From Antricoccus suffuscus (GTDB lineage Bacteria > Actinomycetota > Actinomycetes > Mycobacteriales > Antricoccaceae): a stretch of 64,000 nucleotides of DNA. This document shows positions 1-1,607 of the stretch, piece by piece. The position numbers and the translations under genes were made by a program. Where the stretch lies: positions 1 through 64,000 of the forward strand of contig NZ_PVUE01000003.1 in assembly GCF_003003235.1 (NCBI RefSeq). The letters run 5' to 3'. Under the pieces are notes generated by a model, which worked only from the letters and a program-made list of their open reading frames with translations, did no database searches and was not told the DNA's origin. Within the stretch, counting starts at the first letter, position 1, and the number at the start of each line of letters is the position of its first letter.

Positions 1-95
1 TCACGGCTGATCGCCGCTTGACCCGCCGACTACATCAGTTACCGTGTCCCATATCTACCTAGACACCGGTGTCCCCCATCAACCTAGACAGCACA

Positions 96-126
96 GCTCC
101 CATAGCGCCCAATCTCTACACACGAG
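96..126. repeat. Partial copy of an intergenic repeat (second copy at 1545-1575)
   Basis: The 31 bases match 1545-1575 at 28 positions: a 15-base block (96-110), three differing bases, then a 13-base block (114-126). At the second site the sequence is one arm and the loop of a perfect hairpin; here the partner arm is absent. The two copies bracket the peptide/MauE cassette. Apart from this repeat and the promoter listed separately, bases 1-325 contain no gene I can support. Confidence 0.7.
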
Positions 127-230: not shown

Positions 231-259
231 TTGACCAACGTTCGTTCGGCCTCTAAATT
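231..259 (+). promoter_or_regulatory. Putative vegetative promoter of the Cys-rich peptide gene
   Basis: TTGACC (231-236) and TAAATT (254-259) are separated by exactly 17 bases, which fits a sigma-70-class promoter. It lies in a visibly AT-rich stretch in otherwise GC-rich DNA. It would give a leader of about 60 nt before the ribosome-binding site at 312-318. This is inferred from sequence only. Confidence 0.45.
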
Positions 260-325
260 TCTGGTCATCGGCCAGATCAGTCAGGCACATGCCCGGCCCA
301 AGCCGAACCACAAGGGGGAACCGTG

Positions 326-541
326 ATGAGTACCAAAACGCTCGAGGAAGACTTCGCCGCTGTCATGGCGGCGTACCGCGCGATGCCGCCGGCATCCAAA
401 CGACCGAATGAAGAGCCGGAACCGGGTCCGTCACTCAGGAGCGCCTACTGTCGCGTGGTCGGGACCACCACGATTTGTCACAGCGGCAGCGTCTATTGCT
501 ACTGGTTCGGCGACACGTTCCGGACTTGCAACAGCTACTAG
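326..541 (+). CDS. Small Cys-rich peptide, 71 aa (candidate precursor or redox-substrate peptide)
   Basis: ATG at 326 is preceded by a strong AAGGGGG Shine-Dalgarno (312-318) at 7-nt spacing. The first half is polar and charged with no hydrophobic signal (MSTKTLEEDFAAVMAAY..., then a Pro/Glu-rich linker). The second half holds four cysteines (C42, C51, C58, C68) among Gly, Ser, Thr and aromatic residues. That layout of leader, linker and Cys-rich C-terminus is typical of peptides matured after translation, but I recognise no family. The next gene in the same direction encodes a MauE-type membrane protein fused to a thioredoxin-like domain, so disulphide formation or another thiol-based modification of this peptide is a reasonable inference. 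No export signal is visible. The gene itself is confident; the function is unknown. Confidence 0.72.
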   Translation: MSTKTLEEDFAAVMAAYRAMPPASKRPNEEPEPGPSLRSAYCRVVGTTTICHSGSVYCYWFGDTFRTCNSY

Positions 542-558
542 ATCGCACCTGTCAGCTG

Positions 559-590
559 CTCGGGTTCCGCCCGCGCAGGCGGAACCCGAG
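559..590 (+). promoter_or_regulatory. Perfect 13-bp stem-loop between the peptide gene and the MauE-Trx gene
   Basis: Arms 559-571 and 578-590 are exact reverse complements with a 6-nt loop (572-577). No T-tract follows, so it is not a canonical intrinsic terminator. The 3' arm ends inside the GAGGAG Shine-Dalgarno (588-593) of the next gene. Folding would therefore partly mask that ribosome-binding site and could also protect or attenuate the peptide mRNA. Confidence 0.65.
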
Positions 591-598
591 GAGTGGTG

Positions 599-1513
599 AT
601 GATGATTTTGATAGAGGCTTCCGGCATTGTGCTGGCCGCGCTGTTTGCGATGTCAGCGATCGGGAAGGCTGCCGATCCTTCAGCATCTGCGGACATGATG
701 CGTGAGCTCGGGCTGCCAGCGCGGTGGACCGACGTCGCGGGACGAACCTTGATATTCGGCGAGTTGCTCATCGCTGCCGGCCTGCTCGACGGGCCGTTTC
801 GCCGTGGTGCGGCGGATGCAGCGCTTGTGCTGCTCATCGCCTTCACCGTCGCGGTGACGGTGATCGCGTGGCCGGGGAAGCAGGTCCGGTGCGGCTGTTT
901 CGGTAGGTCGAAGGAGCCGCAGTCCGGCGCGACAATTATCGCCCGCAACCTCGCGCTGGGCGCATTGGCCGTACTGGCCAGCCACAGTGCGGACCCGGCA
1001 GCCGTCGGATGGGTTATCCCGACACCAATCGCGACCGGTCTCGGCGCACTCGGCCTGGCCATCCTGGTCGTCATCGGATTGCGCGCCAAGACGCTGGGAC
1101 CGCAAACGGACGCGACGCCCAAGACCGTGGTCCGCGATCGAGACGGCGGGCAGCTCGTCGTACGCCGCACGGTCGGGGACTCGACCACTCTGGCGCAGCT
1201 CGCGCCTACGCTGCCGGCGCTCGTGCTCTTCCTCGACACGGACTGTCCTGGCTGCGTCGCGCTTCTGGACCAGCCGGTGCCAGACCGAAGCGGCGTCGAC
1301 GTGGTGACCTTAGTGGTGGATTCGGCCAATGCCCGTCCTGACCTGCAAGAGCGAAGCGACGTGGTCGTCGTGGCGCCCGAAACATTTACCGACGCGGGGG
1401 TGCCTGGTACGCCGTGCGGGATGTTGTTTGGCCCCGACTGGCAGCTACTCGGCGAGCCATTGCTCGGCGAACGAGCGATCGGGTTCGCGCTCGCTGCGGC
1501 CGCTGCTACATAG
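599..1513 (+). CDS. MauE/DoxX-type membrane protein fused to a thioredoxin-like domain
   Basis: The protein is about 304 aa, starting at ATG 599 or 602 downstream of GAGGAG (588-593). The N-terminal part has several hydrophobic segments (roughly residues 3-22, 45-60, 70-95, 108-122, 132-160) and the MauE-family RCGCFG motif (C98, C100). The C-terminal part (from about 180) resembles a thioredoxin or MauD domain, with LVLFLDTDCPGC (C216, C219) and a later GVPGTPCG segment that may be the cis-Pro region. MauE-family proteins are linked to disulphide formation in methylamine dehydrogenase biogenesis. Here no mau structural genes are present and the likely client is the upstream 71-aa Cys-rich peptide. 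The fusion would combine a membrane electron conduit and a thiol oxidoreductase in one chain. The family call is confident; the client is inferred. Confidence 0.8.
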   Translation: MMILIEASGIVLAALFAMSAIGKAADPSASADMMRELGLPARWTDVAGRTLIFGELLIAAGLLDGPFRRGAADAALVLLIAFTVAVTVIAWPGKQVRCGCFGRSKEPQSGATIIARNLALGALAVLASHSADPAAVGWVIPTPIATGLGALGLAILVVIGLRAKTLGPQTDATPKTVVRDRDGGQLVVRRTVGDSTTLAQLAPTLPALVLFLDTDCPGCVALLDQPVPDRSGVDVVTLVVDSANARPDLQERSDVVVVAPETFTDAGVPGTPCGMLFGPDWQLLGEPLLGERAIGFALAAAAAT

Positions 1514-1524
1514 ACCCGACGTGG

Positions 1525-1577
1525 ATCTCGTGTGTAGAGGAAGGGCTCCCATAGCGCCCTTCCTCTACACACGAGAT
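1525..1577. repeat. Perfect 22-bp inverted repeat (hairpin), full copy of the repeated element
   Basis: Arms 1525-1546 and 1556-1577 are exact reverse complements around a 9-nt loop. It lies just after the MauE-Trx stop codon and before the DinB-like gene, so it could stop transcription or stabilise the transcript end, although no T-tract follows. Loop and right arm recur at 96-126. Confidence 0.75.
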
Positions 1578-1607
1578 CGAAAGGGTGGCCGCGCATAGAC
1601 TGTCGCC

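Follow-up and report, generated by a model that had tools for sequence, protein, structure and literature searches.

A MauE-MauD fusion beside an orphan four-cysteine peptide in Antricoccus suffuscus: a possible dedicated disulfide catalyst

What does a MauE-type protein serve in a genome without a detected methylamine dehydrogenase light chain, and what is the short cysteine-rich product encoded just before it? We analysed a stretch of 64,000 nucleotides of Antricoccus suffuscus DNA (the window), position 1 of which is base 1 of contig C3 (NZ_PVUE01000003.1) in a genome of 4.68 Mb and 43 contigs. An initial annotation had described a two-gene cassette near its start and had proposed that disulfide machinery serves a secreted small peptide there. 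The coordinates of the features discussed below are collected in Table 1.

The second gene of the cassette is, judging from its sequence, a MauE-MauD fusion (P0002). Pfam MauE (PF07291) matched its residues 1-127 with an E-value of 9.4e-24 (84.6 bits, for a curated cut-off of 27). The protein has five predicted transmembrane helices, a CGCFG motif (98-102) in the loop between the third and fourth helices, and a C-terminal thioredoxin domain with the motif DCPGC (215-219; CPGC at 216-219) and a GTP motif resembling a cis-proline motif. No Pfam thioredoxin family reached an E-value of 5 with P0002 itself, and P0002 used alone in a single-sequence BLASTP search gave no significant match to MauD. 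A profile of 12 sequences led by P0002 (A4) matched Paracoccus MauE (98.7%, E 2.7e-16) and Paracoccus MauD (98.5%, E 1.6e-15), and the features of MauD-type proteins, a transmembrane anchor followed by a CxxC thioredoxin domain, were found. A Nocardia relative compared with plasmids by tblastn matched annotated Paracoccus mauD over the thioredoxin part (3e-6 to 3e-8); 788 of the 876 records in that search were from Escherichia, and the Escherichia matches listed were thioredoxin/TlpA-like, with E-values of about 2e-3. The AlphaFold model of P0002 (12 sequences, mean pLDDT 73.8, pTM 0.51) showed five long, potentially membrane-spanning helices and a thioredoxin-like C-terminal domain, and the best Foldseek rows were thioredoxin folds: the PilB N-domain (8.4e-4), ResA (1.6e-3) and CcmG (5.1e-3). 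Thus, the description of this protein as a MauE membrane protein fused to a CPGC thioredoxin-like domain was borne out by Pfam, by the CPGC motif, by the profile match to MauD and by Foldseek.

The first gene had been described as a small ORF with four cysteines in the C-terminal half of its product and a strong ribosome-binding site. The ORF and its cysteines (residues 42, 51, 58 and 68) were as described; a Shine-Dalgarno (SD)-like stretch is indeed present, but "strong" is generous for a G-rich stretch credited with a 4-base match by the gene caller. The coding signal was moderate, with a GC3 of 0.76 and a mean codon log-odds of 0.104. Just 8% of the true 71-codon segments in the window had a codon score this low or lower, while 9.6% of 219 spurious ORFs had one this high or higher; an antisense frame of the stretch, interrupted by stops and with 65 of about 70 codons counted, scored higher (0.136). 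At the cysteine frequency of the window, the probability of finding at least four cysteines is 0.004 in 71 residues and 1.5e-4 in the last 30, and the peptide is the sole called ORF of at most 120 aa in the window with at least four.

By sequence, the peptide is an orphan in all searches made. It belongs to no family in Pfam or NCBIfam. Apart from itself, only chance-like matches were found at an E-value of 1 in five genomes of the family (own included). In 394 class genomes, its own among them, matches went down to an E-value of 0.002; they had 24-52% identity, many lay in frames with stops, and they were judged to be due to chance. A pattern scan of genome contigs, requiring exact 8-residue matches, returned 96 stretches and the viral contigs 20, none of them confirmed; plasmids gave no match, phages four weak ones (E 0.6-0.8), and PDB sequences nothing better than 0.26. 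With no known relative of the peptide, conservation cannot test its pairing with the fusion. Looking for a conserved peptide next to MauE genes, the check that had been suggested, thus brought up no relative of it, which is no refutation because no close relative of the MauE-MauD gene was found either.

AlphaFold, run on the single sequence, predicted a helix (residues 6-18) and, after a stretch of low confidence, four strands within residues 41-70, with one of the four cysteines in each strand. In the best model the pLDDT of this core was 87-89 by ten-residue block; the five models diverged widely (mean pLDDT from 69.8 to 46.4). Foldseek found no PDB match at E ≤0.001. A WD40-type blade fold, the best VIA-align hit (Z 3.6), was rejected, as it tied with many rows and pointed to a generic meander only. 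No signal-like segment was apparent by hydropathy, the maximum over 15 residues being 0.79 in the first 45 residues. The claim that the peptide is secreted thus found no backing in a signal-peptide-like segment, nor in an exporter gene visible downstream.

Table 1. Coordinates of features in the window, in the 71-aa peptide and at loci with related proteins
Feature	Position	Strand	Remarks
Contig end shared with the end of C17	1..95	.	identity over the full 95 bases
Two imperfect 22-nt direct repeats	44-65, 69-90		within contig end 1..95
Dispersed hairpin element, loop and 3' half only	96-126		followed by spacer and weak promoter-like site
SD-like AAGGGGG	312..318	+	7 nt 5' of peptide ATG; read directly
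Orphan peptide, 71 aa	326..541	+	ATG 326 (in-frame GTG 323 possible), stop 539-541
Peptide parts	residues 1-39 and 40-71		leader-like and predicted four-stranded core, respectively (AlphaFold and hydropathy)
Strong predicted RNA hairpin	556..593	+	3' arm holds SD GAGGAG (588-593) of the fusion gene
MauE-MauD fusion P0002, 304 aa	599..1513	+	ATG 599 (GTG 593 possible)
Perfect 23-bp hairpin 3' of the cassette	1524..1578	.	dispersed-repeat member
Leader-family peptide	L102:6146-6328
Leader-family peptide	L103:11035-11235	-
Leader-family peptide	L104:4166-4327
Leader-family peptide	L105:5612-5809	-
Leader-family peptide	L107:7631-7843
Leader-family peptide	L163:4644-4844
Leader-family peptide	L173:5368-5580	-
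Triple fusion	L034:4893-6341		catalyst and apparent substrate
Triple fusion	L035:4102-5556		catalyst and apparent substrate
Triple fusion	L177:5372-6823		catalyst and apparent substrate
Triple fusion	L181:5986-7512		catalyst and apparent substrate

The intergenic sequence (542-598) had a predicted folding energy of -36.3 kcal/mol (z -5.1), and none of 200 shuffled versions folded as well. A hairpin over the SD of the fusion gene may keep the fusion protein scarce relative to the peptide. The palindromic element on either side of the cassette (GTGTGTAGA...TCTACACAC) is dispersed over at least seven genome sites, among them window 96-126 and 1524-1578 and sites on C1, C9, C10, C16 and C24 (seven sites at up to three mismatches; none with the reversed pattern used as control). 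The direct repeat that it creates around the cassette (96-126 and 1545-1575) was therefore rejected as the boundary of a mobile cassette. The copy downstream is a plausible transcription end. Upstream, a promoter-like TTGACC-17-TAAATT occurs at 231..259 (+), a weak site, as one was found for 0.5 expected by shuffling; because the half-element is followed by a spacer and this site, the peptide gene looks like the first of its unit.

The cassette lies close to the contig end, and the only full-length match to its 95 terminal bases was the end of C17; contigs C26-C43 (up to the first 20 kb of each, the ends of C39-C43 being N and these five yielding no genes) gave no match of more than 15 bases. 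These bases are probably the end of a repeated element, presumably an insertion sequence. Since the window starts in repeated DNA, the context upstream of the peptide gene is lost. Downstream are a gene for a DinB-like protein, a 51-aa membrane ORF and genes for an MFS transporter and malic enzyme, none of them visibly linked with the cassette. The 51-aa ORF (2199-2354) has two predicted hydrophobic segments and no Pfam family.

Matches to P0002, its own genome included, were found in 13 of 200 and 14 of 397 genomes of the order (overlapping samples), in 28 of 394 genomes of the class and at 15 loci on GTDB contigs; none of these searches yielded a close relative. Many of the class matches form a separate subfamily, here called DsbA-type, whose members have the motif CGCFGG together with either a DsbA-like domain or a DsbA-like partner. 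Relatives of the fusion often, though not always, have small cysteine-rich neighbours, the type of which differs by clade. At eight Nocardia loci (L151, L153, L154, L157, L160-L162 and L165) a MauE-MauD fusion is followed by a BP74_N protein, at L155 the BP74_N protein precedes the fusion, and L109 likewise has one beside MauE. These partners (111-119 aa) lack a signal-like segment and share four invariant cysteines in the nine sequences aligned, L155 included; Pfam was run on two of them, and L160 matched in its MauE part only. The Nocardia-type MauE-MauD/BP74_N arrangement is in itself a conserved pairing.

A different family of partners, of 54-71 aa with 6-10 cysteines, shares a leader with an invariant proline and alanine and has a hypervariable core (L102-L105, L107, L163 and L173, the near-identical L107 and L173 being from one genus and not independent). 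An ABC exporter, MauE and a MauD-like protein are encoded near these genes, joined by an S26-like peptidase everywhere except at L163; one S26 protein (L104) and one exporter (L102) were assigned with Pfam, the others by motif. These peptides look like a distinct RiPP-like class. By eye, the peptide of the window, which was not in that alignment, lacks their proline/alanine leader motif. Class III-type lanthipeptide-like precursors accompany L116 (score 24.8 for a cut-off of 25), L174 and L172, with a synthetase shown for the first two. Among the longer matches to P0002, that in genome G706 (residues 7-275) has at its locus an ABC-type exporter and a cysteine-rich precursor resembling those of lanthipeptides, while a 45-aa precursor with four cysteines, a JmjC-domain enzyme and an ABC exporter go with the G521 match (residues 14-258; L110). 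In genome G411 (L106:4024-8935), MauE and MauD-like genes are grouped, as in a graspetide cluster, with those for an MvdD-type ATP-grasp enzyme, a ClpP-like SDH protease and an ABC exporter. Tat-like cysteine-rich partners were found at L176 and L182; that of L159 is doubtful (low-scoring gene call, weak Tat-like stretch). The L182 genes, on a Streptomyces anthocyanicus plasmid (L182:5408-12447), encode MauE, a thioredoxin-like protein and a Tat-like protein with eight cysteines. A few genes further downstream come selD, selA and a gene with a SelB domain, and there may be a connection with selenocysteine. Finally, L034, L035, L177 and L181 unite MauE, thioredoxin, a twin-arginine-like segment and a cysteine-rich domain in one chain.

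Gene calls gave no credible partner at L108, L111-L115, L152, L156, L158 and L164; one of these, L115 (G003), is the fusion of the nearest genome that has one, and it has no credible small cysteine-rich partner. When small ORFs were checked at 12 loci (L112, L113 and L156 not among them), a partner was found at four (L103, L105, L163 and L173) and none at eight; ORFs of L106 and L111 that passed the cysteine filter were judged by eye not to be credible. An ORF of at most 125 aa with at least four cysteines lay within 300 bp on the same strand for 9 of 27 called MauE genes not of DsbA-type, all of them BP74_N, compared with 9 of 275 other genes of at least 150 aa and 0 of 5 DsbA-type MauE genes; these counts come from a sample related by descent and do not amount to a test of significance, and the caller missed MauE of L104, L106, L111, L160 and L163.

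We also examined on which side of the membrane the catalytic parts might lie, making use of the positive-inside rule, a statistical predictor of membrane topology. In 12 of 12 aligned fusions, the side comprising the N-terminus, L2 and L4 has 0-2 positive residues (K/R type), and the side with L1, the CxCFG loop and the C-terminus 7-12. The side bearing the CxC loop and thioredoxin was the richer one in 16 of 16 MauE proteins, fused and separate, including those of Paracoccus and of a Burkholderia relative, and in 0 of 4 DsbA-type proteins. (The tally started from 18 MauE-type and 7 DsbA-type sequences; L104 and L034, with four helices called, were dropped, as were L078 and L091, with six, and L097, with three. 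The Burkholderia "MauE", L183, lacks a CxCF motif, and in this unannotated record the names MauE, MauD and MauA were assigned by gene order.) Without loops L1 and L3, the C-terminal side won in only 10 of 16, with three ties; much of the signal in MauE thus comes from these loops, whose basic character could have a structural cause. The 12 separate MauD-like proteins, whose counts do not depend on L1 and L3, all have 0-1 K/R before their single transmembrane helix and 1-5 in the next 20 residues, with just 1 versus 0 in L176 and L182, while 11 precede the helix and 3-4 follow it in two DsbA-like controls, one of which is encoded in this genome. By the positive-inside rule, this bias places the CxCFG loop and the thioredoxin domain of MauE/MauD proteins, Paracoccus included, in the cytoplasm, and the DsbA-linked MauE-like subfamily is predicted by its charge bias to be the other way round. 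Since much of the MauE signal sits in two loops, the topology counts as a prediction.

The genome also contains a second MauE-domain gene (L001, G000 C2:225248-225634), of CGCFGG type, which adjoins a thioredoxin-like CPAC protein with 11 K/R before the transmembrane helix of its anchor. Judging from this anchor, the two MauE systems of this cell may face opposite sides.

Among 14 partners examined, those with clear hydrophobic leaders were those with twin-arginine motifs, including Paracoccus MauA (SRRSVIGK). The twin-arginine route exports folded proteins, and such leaders therefore fit a thioredoxin domain on the inside. In the triple fusions the twin-arginine segment comes directly after the thioredoxin domain, an arrangement that a thioredoxin domain on the inside would account for most naturally. 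Against the cytoplasmic reading, the L102-L107 peptide family has AxA leaders and S26-like peptidases that suggest signal-peptide processing outside the membrane, an oxidase facing the cytoplasm would work against a reducing cytosol, and the related DsbA-linked subfamily is predicted to have the reverse orientation. A location of the CxC loop and thioredoxin domain in the cytoplasm implies that disulfides form before export. We tentatively propose, as an idea more likely wrong than right, that MauE/MauD systems, fused or separate, form an inner-face disulfide pathway that folds cysteine-rich proteins before Tat or ABC export, of which the cassette would be a minimal form and the DsbA-linked subfamily a reversed one, acting outside. 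A literature search, with most subscription papers outside its scope, found no statement on MauE/MauD topology or on action at the inner face; what is new here is the predicted placement, by charge bias, of the catalytic parts of MauE and MauD on the cytoplasmic side.

A close parallel among known systems is the mauE-mauD-mauA group of Paracoccus denitrificans (NC_008688.1, L180), in which a MauE with a CxCF loop, a thioredoxin-like MauD and a cysteine-rich substrate are encoded side by side, with the same charge bias as in the cassette fusion. There, however, MauE and MauD are separate proteins, and the substrate is the 188-aa light chain of methylamine dehydrogenase (MADH), with 12 cysteines and a twin-arginine leader. 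The Nocardia fusions have the same architecture as P0002 (28-32% identity for those aligned) and a signal-less neighbour with four cysteines; in contrast to the peptide, this neighbour is a conserved BP74_N domain of unrelated sequence, and in all but L155 it lies 3' of the fusion, whereas the peptide gene precedes it. Disulfide-forming oxidoreductases of bacteriocin operons, such as BdbB of sublancin, are likewise dedicated thiol-disulfide catalysts encoded with a small peptide; they belong to other protein families and act outside the cytoplasm.

The initial annotation had recognised no described system of this composition. This has to be amended, since MauE in candidate RiPP clusters already appears in the decRiPPter study, the only relevant paper found in a search for MauE with precursor peptides that left most subscription papers outside its scope. 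According to the parts of that paper covered here, there are three candidate RiPP families with mauE in Streptomyces, one also with mauD, whose predicted precursors each have at least eight cysteines and for which a modifying role was proposed, in clusters filtered for transporter, peptidase and regulator genes (PMC7794033). The cassette resembles them in having a MauE homologue beside a short predicted cysteine-rich precursor; it differs in that the peptide has four cysteines rather than eight or more and no transporter, peptidase or regulator was seen, and those parts of the paper mention no MauE fusion. The variant features of the cassette are the MauE-MauD fusion, the minimal two-gene layout, in which a hairpin covers the second SD, and the orphan core with four cysteines.

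The best explanation, to which we give an even chance, is that the peptide is a precursor and the MauE-MauD fusion its dedicated disulfide catalyst. The 71-aa product would comprise a leader (about residues 1-39) and a core (about 40-71), in which the four cysteines would form two disulfides. Electrons would travel through the CGCFG loop of the MauE part towards the quinones of the membrane, and the disulfides of the peptide would be made or set by exchange with the MauD-type thioredoxin domain fused to it. The site of this exchange would be the inner membrane face, the peptide having no secretion signal that can be seen, and the hairpin over the mauE SD would hold the catalyst scarce; an exported peptide, if any, would use a transporter encoded elsewhere. 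The end use is most likely that of a secreted peptide of the RiPP kind, the main alternative being a cytosolic redox or metal protein. We infer translation of the peptide, its pairing with the catalyst, the oxidase direction, the quinone acceptor, the topology and export alike. The earlier idea of disulfide machinery serving a small peptide gains partial support by analogy, from relatives that lie beside cysteine-rich, leader-bearing peptides, and from the predicted four-stranded core with one cysteine per strand. Against the pairing it counts that only the position of its gene marks the peptide as a substrate, and against the catalyst-substrate reading that no exporter or peptidase was seen, with the contig ending 325 bases upstream of the peptide.

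That end in repeated DNA also leaves room for a larger RiPP-type cluster, with exporter, peptidase and enzymes lying beyond it and further modification of the peptide. The clusters of related actinobacterial MauE/MauD, with their ABC exporters, S26-type peptidases, class III lanthipeptide synthetase and JmjC or MvdD-type ATP-grasp enzymes, favour this possibility. We think it fairly unlikely, as the peptide gene looks like the first of its unit, judging from the half hairpin element, the spacer and the weak promoter-like site, and the genes seen downstream are unrelated in appearance. The cassette itself offers one candidate tailoring gene, with no transporter or peptidase gene immediately downstream. 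In addition, no LANC_like (PF05147) protein was found in the genome, which bears on the lanthipeptide classes with a LanC-type cyclase (control positive in 1 of 14). We give a similarly small chance to a peptide that is never exported, a small cytosolic thiol switch or a metal or redox carrier kept oxidised or reduced by the fusion. The low hydropathy of its N-terminal part, the equally signal-less Nocardia-type partners with their invariant cysteines and the predicted cytoplasmic thioredoxin domain all agree with such a role, but the N-terminal half of the peptide, charged and modelled with low confidence, resembles the leader of a precursor and its compact C-terminal part the core, and many other partners are precursor-like or Tat-like.

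It is quite improbable that the 71-aa ORF is untranslated or unrelated to its neighbour and that the fusion serves another protein. The ATG preceded by an SD-like stretch, the spacer with a hairpin between the genes, the clustering of four cysteines in the last 30 residues and the confident core of the best single-sequence model argue against this; on its side are the missing relatives, the fusions without a small partner, and a codon score within the range of spurious ORFs and below that of the interrupted antisense frame. Maturation of methylamine dehydrogenase, suggested by the names of the relatives of both fusion parts, has next to no probability: the light chain (PF02975) was found neither in the genome nor in any of the 394 class genomes (own included), 0 of 14 control genomes being positive with a model that does recognise Paracoccus MauA, and the peptide has no match to the light-chain family.

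Actinobacterial genomes in which no MADH light chain was detected repeatedly contain MauE genes, so that many of these genes must have another role. As they are found time and again beside cysteine-rich precursors, they can guide the search for peptides with disulfide bonds. Should the charge bias correspond to the real topology, these membrane proteins work from the cytoplasmic side. This would account for the way in which the MADH light chain and other Tat-type substrates could gain their disulfides before export, and it would provide a means of producing disulfide peptides in the cytoplasm of bacteria.
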